IMG/VR virus record: IMGVR_UViG_3300030380_002200
Span: 1-58,635 of that record
Direction: 5' to 3' (one strand)
Source of the DNA: a virus
DNA length: 58,635 nucleotides
Below are positions 5,277 through 37,023 of this stretch, one piece after another; the first letter of the stretch is position 1; each line of letters starts with the position of its first letter. A program made the position numbers and the translations under genes. The notes beneath the pieces are model-generated. The model did no database searches. It was not told where the DNA came from and saw nothing but the letters and a program-made list of their open reading frames with translations.

Positions 5277-5292
5277 GTGTCCTTGAAGACAC
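5277..5292. repeat. Dispersed 16-nt palindrome, copy 1
   Basis: GTGTCCTTGAAGACAC lies between the stop of the tail hub gene (5274) and the next start (5308). It is one of 16 copies of the family described in the findings, with one arm mismatch. No T-run follows, so it is not an obvious terminator. Confidence 0.85.
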
Positions 5293-29245: not shown

Positions 29246-29506
29246 TTACTTGTCGTTCGCTTCCTCGTACAGGCGGTCAGCCCGTGACATGAAGTCCTCC
29301 TCCTCATTGGTGATGGTGAGGTCGGAGTCCTCCAACTCAGCGTACACGCCACCGAGATTCTCGATGGCTTTCTGCACGTCAGCTACTGCTTCCTGCTCAA
29401 GTGTGCTTTGGTCGGCACACCCATGGTCGGTGTACGTCACTCGCACACTGACCCATACCTCACCCGTGAAGGTGGGAATTACATAGTCGTCGTTTGGATT
29501 ACTCAT
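29246..29506 (-). CDS. Hypothetical acidic protein, 86 aa
   Basis: Start taken at MSNPNDDY (29506), which overlaps the amidotransferase stop by 8 nt; a longer frame to 29527 is less likely. EVWVSVRVTYTDHGCADQST reads as beta strands, then ADVQKAIENLGGVYAELED helix-strand and an acidic tail. Co-transcribed with the amidotransferase fusion, so it may work with it. No family recognised. Confidence 0.5.
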   Translation of the reverse strand: MSNPNDDYVIPTFTGEVWVSVRVTYTDHGCADQSTLEQEAVADVQKAIENLGGVYAELEDSDLTITNEEEDFMSRADRLYEEANDK

Positions 29507-30605
29507 GGTCGTTGAATTTGAATACATCCTCGATGGTGTCGCTGATGTCGATTAGGTCTTTCTCTGCGTACCATGTATCGCACTCGCCGCAATGGTAGTT
29601 GTTGAACCCGTCGTACTCCACGTCAGCGAAGCACGTTGGGCAGACATGGCCGTCGTCGGGGAAATCGCAGTCAGCCAACTCGAAGCAGTCGGTGACTTCG
29701 TACTCGCGCTCGAACTCGATGGTCTGTTGGAACGGCTCCGCACGTTGCGGCAACACACGTTCGTATGACTTGTGATGCTCCTTGCCCTCGATGTTGACGT
29801 CGTTGAAGTACACCCATGCCGTGACAATCCTACGGCCCTTGTCCAACACGACAGGCACTTGCTCTCGGACGTACCAACGTGGGTGGCCCTCAAGCCCGTC
29901 GAGGTCAGCGAAGGTCTCGTCGTCAACGCGGAACACATCCACCTCAACGTGATGCCCGATACCCTGTTTGGGGGATAGGAACGGGAGGCCGTCGATGATG
30001 AGCGGGTATTTCTCTGCTGTGACTGCGCTACCCATGTAGATGGACTGACCCTGCAAGTGTCTCGCGTAGTTCCCATGCCCGCGCTTCAACGTGCCGTACA
30101 CAGCGACCACGTTGTCGCGAAAGATATTGGTCTTGCTGTACCACACACCATCCTTGTACGTGAACAGGTCGCGATTGTAAATCTGAAACGACTTGTGCTT
30201 GGTGTTGATGGACACGAAGCGAACGGCCTTGAACTTGGACAGGAACTTCTTCCATGACTTGCGTGGCATATCACCGAGTTTGTTGGCGATGTCCTGCGTA
30301 TCGGTCATGTCCTTGTTGCCGTATCCGTTGACCGTGCCGTTCATCATGAACAGTTCGTCGGCGTTCTTGCCACATACGAACGGGTGGGTGTTCTCCTTGC
30401 AGACCTTGCCGATGGTGGCGTACCTGAAGTGAGCAATGAACGGACGCTCGGTGTCGAGGATAGCGTACTCGCTTGACTTGAAGTAGTCCGTCTTGAAGGT
30501 GTCGAGCCACGTCACACCGAGGCCGTGAGGGTTGACGATGGAGGCGTTCTCCAACGTCTGCATAGCAATCTTGTTCTGCTTCTGCTTGATGATGATTACA
30601 CACAT
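29499..30605 (-). CDS. Class II glutamine amidotransferase - gamma-glutamylcyclotransferase - zinc ribbon fusion
   Basis: 368 residues, three parts. (1) About 1-110, class II glutaminase: Cys2 nucleophile directly after Met, HGLGVTW, AHFRYAT (58-64), NTHPF (72-76) and NG (89-90; the usual preceding His is Met). (2) About 165-290, AIG2/GGCT-like cyclotransferase: VYGTLKRG (169-176) and DGLEGHPRWYVRE with the expected catalytic Glu239. (3) A C-terminal zinc ribbon, CPTC (322-325) and CGEC (339-342). The glutaminase would release ammonia from glutamine; the cyclotransferase acts on gamma-glutamyl amides. Together with the amidoligase at 32278 it suggests amide or peptide-bond chemistry on a metabolite, wall peptide or protein. 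A strong promoter with a palindrome-bearing leader lies upstream. Confidence 0.8.
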   Translation of the reverse strand: MCVIIIKQKQNKIAMQTLENASIVNPHGLGVTWLDTFKTDYFKSSEYAILDTERPFIAHFRYATIGKVCKENTHPFVCGKNADELFMMNGTVNGYGNKDMTDTQDIANKLGDMPRKSWKKFLSKFKAVRFVSINTKHKSFQIYNRDLFTYKDGVWYSKTNIFRDNVVAVYGTLKRGHGNYARHLQGQSIYMGSAVTAEKYPLIIDGLPFLSPKQGIGHHVEVDVFRVDDETFADLDGLEGHPRWYVREQVPVVLDKGRRIVTAWVYFNDVNIEGKEHHKSYERVLPQRAEPFQQTIEFEREYEVTDCFELADCDFPDDGHVCPTCFADVEYDGFNNYHCGECDTWYAEKDLIDISDTIEDVFKFNDHE

Positions 30606-30627
30606 TTGAGTTGAGATTAGAAGGGGC

Positions 30628-30643
30628 GTGTCCTTGAAGACAC
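30628..30643. repeat. Dispersed 16-nt palindrome, copy 9
   Basis: GTGTCCTTGAAGACAC in the leader of the amidotransferase fusion gene, flanked by GGGG and CCCC so that the RNA hairpin extends beyond the core with one C-A mismatch. Confidence 0.85.
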
Positions 30644-30669
30644 ACCCCCTCGGTTAGACAAGTATTGGA

Positions 30670-30701
30670 CAAAGATAAAACAAAAGTTCTACTCTTCCAA
30701 A
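30670..30701 (-). promoter_or_regulatory. Bacteroidota-type promoter for amidotransferase fusion gene
   Basis: Minus-strand TTTG (30701-30698), 20 nt, TATCTTTG (30677-30670). It gives a leader of about 60 nt containing palindrome copy 9. The promoter overlaps the end of the upstream small gene. Confidence 0.8.
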
Positions 30702-30898
30702 TCTTTTTTTGCTTGCTCGATTACATCTTCGAGGTAGAGCTTGTCGTCTACGATGCGTTCGCAGTATCGTATCAGGTTGGCGAGACCCTGAACTTCGTAT
30801 TGACTCAGGTCGGTGGTCTCTCCGTTGGCGATTGCTTCGACACAATCGTCAAGGTCGCGGGCCGTGTTTTCGAAACGGCAGTATGACATATTAGGCAT
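30689..30898 (-). CDS. Small conserved phage protein (SYCRFENT type), 69 aa
   Basis: MPNMSYCRFENTARDLDDCV at the N-terminus is a pattern I know from short uncharacterised phage proteins. The rest is acidic and helical. An alternative start is the second Met (30889). Function unknown. Confidence 0.6.
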   Translation of the reverse strand: MPNMSYCRFENTARDLDDCVEAIANGETTDLSQYEVQGLANLIRYCERIVDDKLYLEDVIEQAKKDLEE

Positions 30899-30901
30899 GA
30901 C

Positions 30902-31096
30902 TTATGAATTAGAGTTGAGTTCCATTTCCTTCCATTGGTCGAGACTGCGCCACCCTGTGCGGGAGAACAGGATGCATTCCAATGAGTAGAGGTTTGTTCC
31001 GTTGATGCTACACACGAGGGCAATCTCCTCCTCGTTGCATACTCCGTACTCGACCATCAGGTCGTAGAGTTCGATGTACTTCTTGTCGTTGCTCAT
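30902..31096 (-). CDS. Hypothetical protein, 64 aa
   Basis: Acidic helical protein (YIELYDLMVEYGVCNEEEIA, then NGTNLYSLECILFSRTGWRS). Packed 3 nt from the next gene. Its last codons include the ACTCAACTC leader motif of the downstream gene. No family recognised. Confidence 0.5.
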   Translation of the reverse strand: MSNDKKYIELYDLMVEYGVCNEEEIALVCSINGTNLYSLECILFSRTGWRSLDQWKEMELNSNS

Positions 31097-31104
31097 GATT
31101 GGTT

Positions 31105-31236
31105 CTACTTTATTAGTTTTTCTAATTGTTCTAAAACGATGTCCAACATCTCTCCGTCAGAGATATAGTTCTCTCCTTCTTCTGAGTGCTTTGGTTTTTT
31201 GGCGTACTCAATCAACCCTTTGATTTGTTCTTTCAT
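31105..31236 (-). CDS. Hypothetical protein, 43 aa
   Basis: MKEQIKGLIEYAKKPKHSEE followed by GENYISDGEMLDIVLEQLEK. Start chosen at 31236 for the ATGA overlap with the membrane protein gene upstream; longer frames lie over that gene. Small helical protein, function unknown. Confidence 0.5.
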   Translation of the reverse strand: MKEQIKGLIEYAKKPKHSEEGENYISDGEMLDIVLEQLEKLIK

Positions 31237-31445
31237 GACTTCTCTTCTTTGATGTAGCCCAACAACAGGCCAAGTGAAACGATGGTGATGCTTCCTCCCA
31301 TCAGGGAGACGATGATGGCCGCGATGATGCTGTGACCTTGGTATGCATTGCAGTTGGCAATGACTGACCACACGAGCGCGATGCCCATGCAGAGGGTGCA
31401 ACACGCCATGAACATGGACGTTGCGATGTACTTAAACTTTTTCAT
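31233..31445 (-). CDS. Two-span membrane protein, 70 aa
   Basis: Two hydrophobic segments (about 9-31 with a Cys-rich middle, MACCTLCMGIALVWSVIA, and about 40-63) separated by NCNAYQGH, with a charged C-terminus KEEKS. It has the ACTCAACTCAAATG leader and palindrome copy 10 upstream. An early-expressed small inner-membrane protein; exclusion, antirestriction or lysis timing are possible but nothing in the sequence decides. Confidence 0.55.
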   Translation of the reverse strand: MKKFKYIATSMFMACCTLCMGIALVWSVIANCNAYQGHSIIAAIIVSLMGGSITIVSLGLLLGYIKEEKS

Positions 31446-31460
31446 TTGAGTTGAGTTTGT

Positions 31461-31476
31461 GTGTCCTTGAGGACAC
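31461..31476. repeat. Dispersed 16-nt palindrome, copy 10
   Basis: GTGTCCTTGAGGACAC between the membrane protein start (31445) and the end of the next gene upstream (31485). Confidence 0.85.
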
Positions 31477-31484
31477 AGGGTTAA

Positions 31485-31757
31485 TTACTTGAGCATTGCG
31501 ATGACCTTGACCTCGACACATTCAGACATGAGGCGAGTGAACTCGCACACGCAGATGTAGCGTTCGCTTGACGTACATTCATACTCGATGCTGACGAGGT
31601 TGTCTCCGTACTCCTCCTGTGCCGCGACGTAGTAGTCGTGGTGTTCCTGTTCAATGATGCTCTCCTCGGAGGCAGAGAGGTGAGACGTGTCCCCGTTGAA
31701 GATGGTGGGGAGGAACTGCTGACCGATGGTCAGGTCTAAAAAATGATGTGCTTTCAT
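31485..31757 (-). CDS. Hypothetical protein, 90 aa
   Basis: Start taken at the ATG at 31757 (MKAHHFLDLTIGQQFLPTIF); the longer frame would use TTG and include the promoter leader. The C-terminal half has a beta-rich look with several Cys (IEYECTSSERYICVCEFTR). Headed by a strong promoter. No family recognised. Confidence 0.55.
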   Translation of the reverse strand: MKAHHFLDLTIGQQFLPTIFNGDTSHLSASEESIIEQEHHDYYVAAQEEYGDNLVSIEYECTSSERYICVCEFTRLMSECVEVKVIAMLK

Positions 31758-31772
31758 TGTGTTTGATTTAGA

Positions 31773-31804
31773 CAAAGATAAGACAAGAATTGTACACTTC
31801 CAAA
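31773..31804 (-). promoter_or_regulatory. Bacteroidota-type promoter
   Basis: Minus-strand TTTG (31804-31801), 20 nt, TATCTTTG (31780-31773), 15 nt before the ATG at 31757. Spacer resembles those at 28587 and 30670. Confidence 0.8.
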
Positions 31805-31805
31805 T

Positions 31806-31973
31806 TTATTTTGGGGTGATGAAAATTTCATCGAACGTCCAACCTTGGTTGCGCTCCATGTATGCAACGTAGTTGTCGATGTGGCTCTGCCCGCTCCACA
31901 ATTTCGTGACATGGCGCACACTACCAAGTCCCGTTTGGAACTTGATGGTGGCGTGGATGCGTGACTGACTCAT
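31806..31973 (-). CDS. Hypothetical protein, 55 aa
   Basis: MSQSRIHATIKFQTGLGSVR, then LWSGQSHIDNYVAYMERNQG. Start chosen for the ATGA overlap with the coiled-coil gene upstream. Reads like a small beta-alpha protein; function unknown. Confidence 0.5.
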   Translation of the reverse strand: MSQSRIHATIKFQTGLGSVRHVTKLWSGQSHIDNYVAYMERNQGWTFDEIFITPK

Positions 31974-32149
31974 GGCGTTTGGTTGAGGATGTTTTCGAGT
32001 TGGCATTCTTCCTGCTCAAGCAGACGAATCTCTGCACGGATGTCAAGGATGCGTTGCTTTGTATCCTCCAACAGCTTGGCCTTCGTGGAGTGCATTGCTT
32101 CCCATGCAACCTGTAACGGGGACTTCAGCGTGTTCTGTGGATTTGACAT
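31970..32149 (-). CDS. Small coiled-coil protein, 59 aa
   Basis: Start at 32149 (MSNPQNTLKSPLQVAWEAMH); longer frames pass through the hairpin-rich intergenic region. Residues 20-55 form a strong heptad-like helix (KQRILDIRAEIRLLEQEECQ). Function unknown. Confidence 0.5.
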   Translation of the reverse strand: MSNPQNTLKSPLQVAWEAMHSTKAKLLEDTKQRILDIRAEIRLLEQEECQLENILNQTP

Positions 32150-32277
32150 GATGTTGTTGGCGGTAGGTGCGCCACCCATTTGTGTGAGTTTCCGTTTCGA
32201 CCTTTCGGTCTCATCAGCATCGGTACACACCGATGGACGGAGGGAGCGTGTCCTTGAGGACACGACTCCCGTTCGCC
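32150..32277. other. Intergenic region with three consecutive hairpins
   Basis: GACCTTTCGGTC (near 32198-32209), ATCGGTACACACCGAT (32218-32233) and the palindrome hairpin flanked by GGGAG and CTCCC (32242-32270, one bulge) follow one another. None has a T-run on the minus strand. It lies between the amidoligase stop and the next gene, so it may slow or end transcription, or be a protein-binding site. No gene seen here. Confidence 0.4.
32248..32263. repeat. Dispersed 16-nt palindrome, copy 11
   Basis: GTGTCCTTGAGGACAC just downstream of the amidoligase gene, with extended GC-rich arms. Confidence 0.85.
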
Positions 32278-33192
32278 TCACCACCCGTGGCGGGTCAGGT
32301 CTCTGTCCCACCTGTCGGTCATGTTGCGGTGTGGGTCAATCCACGCGATGGTCTCGCGGTTGATTTGCCCTGTGCGGAGCATCTTGTTGAAGGCTTCCGA
32401 CAGCGTCAGAATCTCGGTGACCTTCACCTCGTCGTGGCCGTACATGGAACTCACGATGGGCGTGACGGCCTTGAGGAACGTCTTGAACGATGCGTTCGGG
32501 CGGTTGACAGCGAAGTCGAGCATCATGTAACACAACTCGTAGCGACGCATCATCTGCTTCACACCTGTGATGCGCGATGGCAAGCGGAACTCAACTCGGT
32601 CGCCCTTGCGGAGGCAGACTTGGTAGCGTCCTGCGTTGGTCTCCACGTCCATGAATGGGTTGCTTCGGCAGTAGCCGTTGCCCAACCGACGACGGAACAG
32701 GGAGAGCATGACCCCGCTGAACTTCTTCAAGCGGTTCATCAACTCCTCACCTTCCATGCCGTCCACAGCCAAGGTGATGTGCCCACCACAGCGGTGGTCG
32801 CTTGGGCTGTGGCTGTCCTCGATGATGCGCTTTGCCTCGTACATCATGTTGAAGACCTTGTTGCGCCATTCGCCCTTGGGGAGCAGGGGCAAGATGTGGG
32901 TGATGGCTTCGTAGCCACATGAGCCGTCACGCTCGAACCCTGCGAACAGAGCGTACTCGGTGACTGCGCCACGGCTGAAGCGAGACTTCTCAACCTCGAA
33001 GCCAATGGTGAACCTGCTGTTCACGTTGCCGTTCTCGAACTCGATGACGTTGCGCTTCTGCGCAGACTTCAGCGTTGCGATGTCTCCCTTCTTGGCTCCC
33101 ATGCCAAGGTGCTTGGGAGATGGAGAGCCGTGGTAGCGGACAACGCGGTTGCGGTTGTAGTCGCCTGTGGTGGTGTATTGGATAGTGTCCAT
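32278..33192 (-). CDS. Glutamine-synthetase-like amidoligase (COOH-NH2 ligase family)
   Basis: 304 residues from the ATG at 33192; a longer frame would translate palindrome copy 12 and is rejected. FTIGFEVEKSR (Glu66, Glu68), HRCGGHITL (His133, His138) and DRVEFRLPS (Glu201, Arg203) are the three metal/ATP-binding signatures of the GS-fold amidoligase family found in phages, fungi and bacteria. These enzymes are predicted to join a carboxylate to an amine with ATP. Known genomic partners in the literature include class II amidotransferases and cyclotransferase-like proteins, and both domains are encoded 1.7 kb downstream. The substrate could be host wall peptide, a phage protein or a small metabolite. 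Confidence 0.75.
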   Translation of the reverse strand: MDTIQYTTTGDYNRNRVVRYHGSPSPKHLGMGAKKGDIATLKSAQKRNVIEFENGNVNSRFTIGFEVEKSRFSRGAVTEYALFAGFERDGSCGYEAITHILPLLPKGEWRNKVFNMMYEAKRIIEDSHSPSDHRCGGHITLAVDGMEGEELMNRLKKFSGVMLSLFRRRLGNGYCRSNPFMDVETNAGRYQVCLRKGDRVEFRLPSRITGVKQMMRRYELCYMMLDFAVNRPNASFKTFLKAVTPIVSSMYGHDEVKVTEILTLSEAFNKMLRTGQINRETIAWIDPHRNMTDRWDRDLTRHGW

Positions 33193-33209: not shown

Positions 33210-33225
33210 GTGTCCTTGAAGACAC
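33210..33225. repeat. Dispersed 16-nt palindrome, copy 12
   Basis: GTGTCCTTGAAGACAC in the 36-nt space between the first minus-strand gene and the amidoligase start. Confidence 0.85.
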
Positions 33226-33228
33226 GGG

Positions 33229-33897
33229 TTAGAGTTGGTGGTTAGAGTCAGCCGCACCAATCAGGTTCTGCATGGTTGCAATGGCCGAGAGAATCTCCGC
33301 TCGGCTGTTGGTGGTGTGCTGTCCGCCATTGGCATCGAGCCTCCATGAGACGTTGGATGCTCCGTCAACCTTCATGGTGAAGGTTGAGATGGTATCAACC
33401 TGCTCGGTGCGCGTCTCCACGTCTGTCTCCTCGACAGCCTGTTCGATGGCTTCAGTCACCTGCTCCTCGGTTGCGTCTTCAGGCAACTCGGACAGGTCAA
33501 TGTCACGACCGAACTTGTCGAGGTTGGCGATGGTACGCATCGCTTGGTCTCCTGCTTCGTCGCACTTGCGGTTGAACGCGGCAATGACTCGTGGGTCAAG
33601 TGAGCCACAGCGACGAACCTTGTGGAAGTACGACTTGCCCCAACCGAAGACCTTCTTGGAGAAATCCTCTGTTGTCCATGACAAGCCTTGCTCATCGAAG
33701 GCCAACTTGCCTTCGTCGCTGTTGAACCATGCGTATGCGTTCACAACGTGAACCGAGAGAGCCATGCTGTGCTCGAACTTGCGCTTCTGTGCGTTGTCTA
33801 CGTTGCGCTGTCCGCGACGGATGTCGGTGAGGTTCAACGCTGTCTTCACTTGTGGGATGTTGAGGAAATCCCGTTCCATTTGATTGAGAATGCTCAT
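33229..33897 (-). CDS. First early gene: predicted HTH-type protein, 222 aa
   Basis: First gene of the minus-strand block, next to the divergent control region. Residues about 60-95 (EQGLSWTTEDFSKKVFGWGK, then SYFHKVRRC) look like a helix-turn-helix. The middle is acidic (about 140-165), and the C-terminus (MKVDGASNVSWRLDANGGQ) is beta-type. Position and the HTH-like segment suggest a regulator, possibly one that recognises the dispersed palindrome or TGTCGATA sites. This is inference; I do not recognise a named family. Confidence 0.45.
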   Translation of the reverse strand: MSILNQMERDFLNIPQVKTALNLTDIRRGQRNVDNAQKRKFEHSMALSVHVVNAYAWFNSDEGKLAFDEQGLSWTTEDFSKKVFGWGKSYFHKVRRCGSLDPRVIAAFNRKCDEAGDQAMRTIANLDKFGRDIDLSELPEDATEEQVTEAIEQAVEETDVETRTEQVDTISTFTMKVDGASNVSWRLDANGGQHTTNSRAEILSAIATMQNLIGAADSNHQL

Positions 33898-36765: not shown

Positions 36766-37023
36766 ATGAAGCCAATAGGAAAGTATATCCTCATCGAGCC
36801 TGCGATGGAGGAGGTAGAGACAGAGTCAGGGCTATTGCTTACCGTAGAAGACCACGAAGAGTTTCGCTATCGCAAGGCTTTGGTATGCGCAGTAGGCACT
36901 GACGTAACTACCATGAAGGATGGCGATACCATCTACTATGACAACCGCTCAGGGTATAAGGTCATGTTGCATAATAAAAAGTACAGCGTCATCAAGGAGC
37001 ACGATGTCGTTGTTGTCGAATAA
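36766..37023 (+). CDS. groES: Phage-encoded GroES-like co-chaperonin
   Basis: 85 residues. KYILIEP, then a mobile-loop-like EEVETESGLLLT (about 15-26), VCAVGTDVTTMKDGDTIYYD and a final KYSVIKEHDVVVVE strand follow the GroES order, but it is about 12 residues shorter than E. coli GroES. The hydrophobic triplet LLL in the loop stands where IVL contacts GroEL. It lies directly downstream of groEL, so the pair forms an operon. Its 3-prime end overlaps a convergent minus-strand gene by 32 nt. Confidence 0.85.
   Translation: MKPIGKYILIEPAMEEVETESGLLLTVEDHEEFRYRKALVCAVGTDVTTMKDGDTIYYDNRSGYKVMLHNKKYSVIKEHDVVVVE

Follow-up and report, generated by a model that had tools for sequence, protein, structure and literature searches.

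Do two genes that lie close together in the early block of a phage, one for a glutamine synthetase (GS)-like amidoligase and one for a fusion of a class II glutaminase, a cyclotransferase and a zinc ribbon, encode one enzyme system, and which substrate would it modify? The question was raised for IMG/VR virus record IMGVR_UViG_3300030380_002200 by a reading made from its letters alone (here the sequence-only reading), which had considered a functional link of the two very likely. We analysed the whole record of 58,635 bp (the window), in which both genes are located in the replication/early block. The answer towards which we lean, with modest confidence and on the basis of sequence and structure models, is a two-protein enzyme system that would work by the steps proposed below. 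The features concerned are:

32278..33192, minus strand: predicted GS-fold amidoligase of 304 amino acids (aa), a divergent relative of PF12224 (AlphaFold2 model, Foldseek, hhalign, conservation)
29499..30605, minus strand: predicted fusion of class II glutaminase, gamma-glutamylamine cyclotransferase (GGACT) and zinc ribbon, 368 aa (Pfam, AlphaFold2 model, Foldseek, conservation)
30126..30605, minus strand: class II (N-terminal nucleophile, Ntn) glutaminase domain, aa 1-160, putative nucleophile Cys2 (conserved residues, GFAT/GlmS fold)
29781..30113, minus strand: predicted GGACT domain, aa 165-275, catalytic Glu239 (PF06094, profile matches, 3juc, E239)
29556..29654, minus strand: predicted C-terminal zinc ribbon, CxxC-x13-CxxC (C322, C325, C339, C342)

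The amidoligase

Pfam gave no match for the amidoligase, PF12224 being missed in the window protein as well as in six relatives of its lineage, and a sequence-only PDB search returned nothing at E<=10. With hhalign the protein was matched to ten PF12224-type phage amidoligases with 96.9% probability (E=1.3e-10), the GxExE, D-x-S, H, Y and ExR motifs being aligned, and a hidden Markov model built from nine phage members of PF12224 picked up 31 loci of the lineage, down to 2.5e-6. The AlphaFold2 model, based on 69 relatives, reached a mean predicted local distance difference test (pLDDT) score of 95.7 and a predicted TM-score (pTM) of 0.93. Its best match in Foldseek was GmaS, a gamma-glutamylmethylamide synthetase (E=9e-5, probability 1.00), followed by glutamine synthetases, the Pup ligase PafA and YbdK, all of the GS fold; the best matches had probabilities of 0.95-1.00 but low global TM-scores (0.3-0.4), and TM-scores over the matches as a whole were 0.2-0.4. 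By its model the amidoligase is assigned to the glutamine synthetase fold, which is a prediction of fold membership only.

E66, E68, E87, D89, E95, H138, R169, E201 and R203 are invariant in 87/87 non-redundant relatives. Three signatures had been named in the sequence-only reading for a GS-like amidoligase. ExE (E66, E68) and ExR (E201, R203) are both invariant, and the fold is upheld by model and profile. HxxxxH has to be given up, as its first His varies and the motif is an accident of the window sequence; the conserved His motif of the lineage is CGGH, which holds the invariant H138. GxExE, D-x-S, Y and ExR of PF12224 are all present and (nearly) invariant in the lineage, the second His of HxH being the exception: at the position H138 +2, which is His in the PF12224 phage proteins, Thr is found in 77/87 and His in 3/87 relatives, so that HxH has mostly become HxT.

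The gene likely starts with the ATG at 33192. This start is preferred over a longer open reading frame (ORF) reaching to 33225 because the longer start falls within a palindrome, described below, and because the relatives align from the ATG. Two relatives have deviating frames: in L054 (407-1279) the amidoligase is broken into two ORFs, by a frameshift in the genome or an assembly error, and in L009 (MW202828, 10218-11942) the frame has a long 5' extension and is annotated as a single 1725-bp coding sequence.

The fusion protein

The fusion chain opens with Met-Cys, as needed for class II glutaminases. Pfam recognised GGACT (PF06094, E=5.5e-20, aa 167-274) and, slightly short of the cut-off, class II GATase_4 (E=1.8e-4, aa 55-99). 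The AlphaFold model (mean pLDDT 88) matched the 5-oxoproline complex of human GGACT (3juc, E=1.1e-10, TMt 0.71) as well as GFAT/GlmS (E about 1e-5), whose N-terminal domains are class II glutaminases. Human GGACT shares the fold, the catalytic Glu and 32% identity with the window domain; it is a stand-alone enzyme, whereas the window domain is fused and a predicted cyclotransferase. Profile matches of this domain to solved structures were likewise to GGACT (1vkb/3jub).

Among the non-redundant fusion relatives the glutaminase residues Cys2, Arg61, Asn89-Gly90 and Asp102 are invariant (89/89), as are YGTL170-173 and Glu239 of the cyclotransferase. Cys322/325/339/342 of the predicted ribbon, whose strands are seen in the model, are also present in 89/89, with the first knuckle shifted in L006. 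By residues and model the first domain is placed in the class II (Ntn) glutamine amidotransferase family, and the second, in which the YGTL motif, the Glu and the fold are all found, is predicted to be a gamma-glutamylamine cyclotransferase of PF06094. Gamma-glutamylamines are most likely its substrates, because its closest solved relatives are GGACT and not GGCT or ChaC. The architecture read from the letters, a class II glutaminase, an AIG2/GGCT-type cyclotransferase and a putative zinc ribbon in a single chain, is confirmed by Pfam, Foldseek and the conserved residues. The integrity of the active sites, for which a check had been suggested, is supported for both proteins: both model well and their expected catalytic residues are invariant (87/87 and 89/89).

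The gene pair in the phage lineage

Profile scans of viral contigs yielded at least 178 amidoligase and at least 226 fusion matches. The best 80 of each were analysed, with about 10 kb on each side per relative and the entire record for the window. The linked pair is present in the window phage and about 150 relatives. In the podovirus lineage of the window, counting loci whose sequence extends for 5 kb or more on the side in question, the fusion gene lies downstream in 137/137 amidoligase loci and the amidoligase upstream in 120/120 fusion loci, which bears out the co-occurrence that the sequence-only reading had set as a check. Both genes are always on the same strand with the amidoligase first, at a spacing of 59-4876 bp (median 1.9 kb). 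The lineage is syntenic as one, since the GroEL/GroES, DnaA-like, Sak and exonuclease genes are also kept in place.

Among the matches in bacterial genomes, a 56-kb contig binned with a Cytophagales metagenome-assembled genome has the full architecture. Because of this contig and of the BT4734-like primase, the hosts of the lineage are suggested to be Bacteroidota.

Pairings in unrelated phages

The amidoligase is directly followed by a glutaminase in MEP402 (10-bp overlap), MW202733 (5 bp downstream), PV036454, MT835576, PX050566 (weak amidoligase match) and Marvin (gp105-gp106, amidoligase match under the cut-off). A stand-alone GGACT follows it in the Heliusvirales phages PV036447 (13 bp) and PV036446, and C75C1 has in this place a glutaminase-GGACT fusion that lacks the ribbon. 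In C. clostridioforme prophages an amidoligase and a cyclotransferase are a few ORFs apart (PMC11318856). In phiEco32, LUZ24, CW02 and others all three enzymes are found alongside an ATP-grasp and a PF14395 ligase. What stays constant in these pairings is the amidoligase, and the fusion protein of the window unites both accessory enzymes. The functional link proposed earlier is well supported by these comparisons, because the pairing is kept in unrelated phages and because the fusion joins two domains that are each paired separately elsewhere.

Several points weigh against one enzyme system. Co-occurrence inside the window lineage may be mere shared ancestry and is weak functional evidence alone, because these phages form one syntenic lineage. 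A mirror-tree (distance-matrix) test gave no excess co-divergence of amidoligase and fusion protein (Spearman 0.46 vs 0.60 for amidoligase and exonuclease). Given the Thr at H138 +2, the specificity of the amidoligase may differ from that of the PF12224 phage proteins. Moreover, the glutaminase is dispensable in some phages, as the GGACT-only pairings show, so that ammonia may not be the sole amine donor. That the two genes are chance neighbours, i.e., unrelated auxiliary enzymes kept by lineage synteny, would agree with an early block that is syntenic as a whole and with the lack of excess co-divergence. We nevertheless regard this explanation as very unlikely, since six or more unrelated groups of phages show the same pairing in the same order, and since glutaminase and GGACT are fused in one chain.

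Methylococcaceae and Nevskiaceae have stand-alone class II glutaminases (L171-L178) that are related to the phage domain, and the amidoligase profile found nothing near them. In L178, and apparently in L176, the glutaminase lies beside genes which by their sequence pattern resemble those of periplasmic sulfate-binding proteins.

Comparison with known cassettes

The closest published counterpart is the podoviral 'peptidoglycan modification cassette', which PMC5498523 and PMC10580990, citing Iyer 2009 and Hardies 2013, place in phiEco32 (phi32_77-86), LUZ24 (gp16-22), CW02 and RIO-1/PSA-HP1. Like the window it combines an amidoligase, a class II glutaminase and a GGCT/GGACT in the early region. 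In difference to it, the window lineage has the glutaminase and GGACT fused with a zinc ribbon, and its amidoligase forms a separate divergent clade. The ATP-grasp and the PF14395 COOH-NH2 ligase of the cassette had no match in the whole window or in the flanks of about 10 kb of the relatives, whereas all positive controls were matched. The Methylophilales phages MEP401/402 (PMC10580990) and the mycobacteriophage Marvin also have the glutaminase directly after the amidoligase, but without GGACT domain and ribbon and with the amidoligase domain within a longer chain. Phage C75C1 (OQ984151) has an amidoligase and a glutaminase-GGACT fusion that is 46% identical over aa 1-267; however, its amidoligase is a canonical PF12224 member (3.5e-30), the zinc ribbon is missing, and its 39-kb genome belongs to another lineage. 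By this comparison the type of system is already known from sequence, and the window carries an unusually condensed, fused and divergent variant of the podoviral cassette.

Proposed mechanism and possible targets

The domain assignments support three separate predicted capacities, glutamine hydrolysis, ATP-dependent amide formation and gamma-glutamyl removal. In the system that we propose, the class II glutaminase domain would split glutamine to give ammonia. The GS-fold amidoligase would then activate a carboxylate with ATP and couple it to an amine, be it this ammonia or another one. The GGACT of the fusion would strip gamma-glutamyl from amines as 5-oxoproline, either for product release or for editing of wrong products, and the zinc ribbon probably, as a guess, docks the chain to a partner or substrate. 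The gene pairing suggests that ammonia is handed from glutaminase to amidoligase, and the GGACT-only pairings suggest that GGACT acts on a product or by-product of the amidoligase; we also infer the order of the steps and the docking. As target, a small host peptide or a host metabolite is most likely.

For the homologous cassettes of phiEco32, RIO-1 and LUZ24 a host cell-wall peptide, modified for superinfection exclusion, has been conjectured in print, from comparative genomics only (PMC10580990, PMC5498523, PMC11945000; Iyer 2009 via PMC10580990). No wall experiment for such cassettes was found in the literature searched. Of the targets proposed in print, the stem peptide of peptidoglycan comes first, though as a conjecture. 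As a narrower form of the two-protein system, the pair would amidate or alter stem-peptide carboxylates (D-Glu or meso-diaminopimelate) for superinfection exclusion or lysis control, which we consider possible but doubtful. In favour of this explanation, the hosts of cassette phages differ widely in their envelopes but nearly all have peptidoglycan, and other enzyme pairs (MurT-GatD, AsnB/LtsA) are well established to amidate wall peptides in a glutamine-dependent way. The explanation is opposed by the need of GGACT for a free alpha-amine on the gamma-glutamyl residue, as the stem-peptide Glu, attached to L-Ala, has none. In addition, phage PV036447, labelled Anaeroplasmataceae (Mollicutes; a predicted host), has an amidoligase and a GGACT, and a scan of 12 of its large proteins recognised no peptidoglycan hydrolase. 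With its host predicted, this phage is evidence against the wall as universal target. PV036447 (L192/L195/L196) also encodes a trypsin-like protein after the holin as well as subtilase, RHS-repeat and GmrSD proteins.

The best structural matches of the two proteins, GmaS and GGACT, catalyse chemically opposite reactions. This and the GGACT-only pairings would fit a gamma-glutamyl cycle, in which the amidoligase makes gamma-glutamylamines of a polyamine, lysine or similar metabolite as a transient protecting or transport form, GGACT cleaves them and the glutaminase gives glutamate. However, at about 11% identity specificity does not carry over from a Foldseek match, and to make and break the same bond is futile without an intervening step, for which no gene is conserved between the pair; such a cycle seems somewhat unlikely to us.

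The ribbon could also guide glutaminase and GGACT to a macromolecule whose amide or isopeptide bonds the amidoligase would form or undo, in the manner of PafA, or to the bases of the phage DNA. This is favoured by the match of the amidoligase model to PafA, by the location of the genes within the replication/early block, and by the fact that zinc ribbons often bind nucleic acid or protein. On the other hand, the C75C1 fusion is without a ribbon, no substrate protein is conserved between the two genes, and no hydroxymethylase, kinase or glycosyltransferase for base hypermodification was recognised in the early block, which makes modification of a macromolecule decidedly unlikely.

More broadly, and only tentatively, the two-protein system may be a form of a general phage machine for writing and erasing amides on a non-wall substrate (host protein, nucleotide or metabolite), with the amidoligase as hub and exchangeable modules that supply ammonia and remove gamma-glutamyl.

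Neighbouring genes and a dispersed palindrome

The sequence-only reading had regarded the small genes between the two enzymes, including one starting at 29246, as possible substrates or partners. The gene at 29246-29527 lies outside the interval and overlaps the 3' end of the fusion gene instead. Outside the near-identical L002, most of the intervening window ORFs lack a homologue, and the best-kept one occurs in about 20/179 loci; the commonest intervening gene elsewhere (53 aa, 55 loci) is not in the window. Because they are not conserved, these genes are poor substrate candidates. Upstream of the amidoligase and of the fusion gene the following features were found:

33229..33897, minus strand: conserved gene of 222 aa, upstream neighbour of the amidoligase
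33210..33225, no strand: copy of a dispersed palindrome, close to the amidoligase ATG on its upstream side
30628..30643, no strand: copy of the dispersed palindrome, 22 bp upstream of the fusion-gene ATG

The 222-aa gene has a homologue in 87/90 non-redundant loci, with a median ORF gap of 36 bp, and its divergence tracks that of the amidoligase best (Spearman 0.84); its product is a candidate binder of the palindrome. Genes for a phage GroEL (35109-36707, plus strand) and GroES (36766-37023, plus strand) lie next to the early block, on the other strand, and are kept in most relatives.

The 16-bp palindrome GTGTCYTYRARGACAC is dispersed across the window in perfect or near-perfect form, with sites starting at 5277, 12108, 18148, 21141, 22011, 26525, 27948, 29122, 30628, 31461, 32248, 33210, 34134, 35761, 45309 and 52410. 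A scan of the window with 3 mismatches allowed gave 34 strand matches vs 0.55 expected by chance. It was matched in 140/191 loci of the lineage, and 471 sites in the 90 non-redundant loci gave the consensus GTGTCTTCAAAGACAC; in 41/89 loci it lies 19-23 bp 5' of the fusion-gene ATG. The centre CA/TG has a 3:1 bias relative to gene direction. Because variants that would give U.G in RNA and those that would give C.A are nearly balanced (34 vs 36), the data favour a putative DNA-binding site over an RNA hairpin.

Significance of the gene pair

The podoviral cassette was named 'peptidoglycan modification' on comparative grounds alone. Compared with the five-enzyme set, the condensed two-gene form of the window is much easier to express and to assay, and the union of three domains in one of its proteins suggests that one and the same amidoligase is served by glutaminase and GGACT. 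The possible case of a wall-less host offers a direct way to question the accepted target. If the pair is indeed part of an amide-writing and -erasing machine, such a machine would also be useful to phages of wall-less bacteria.

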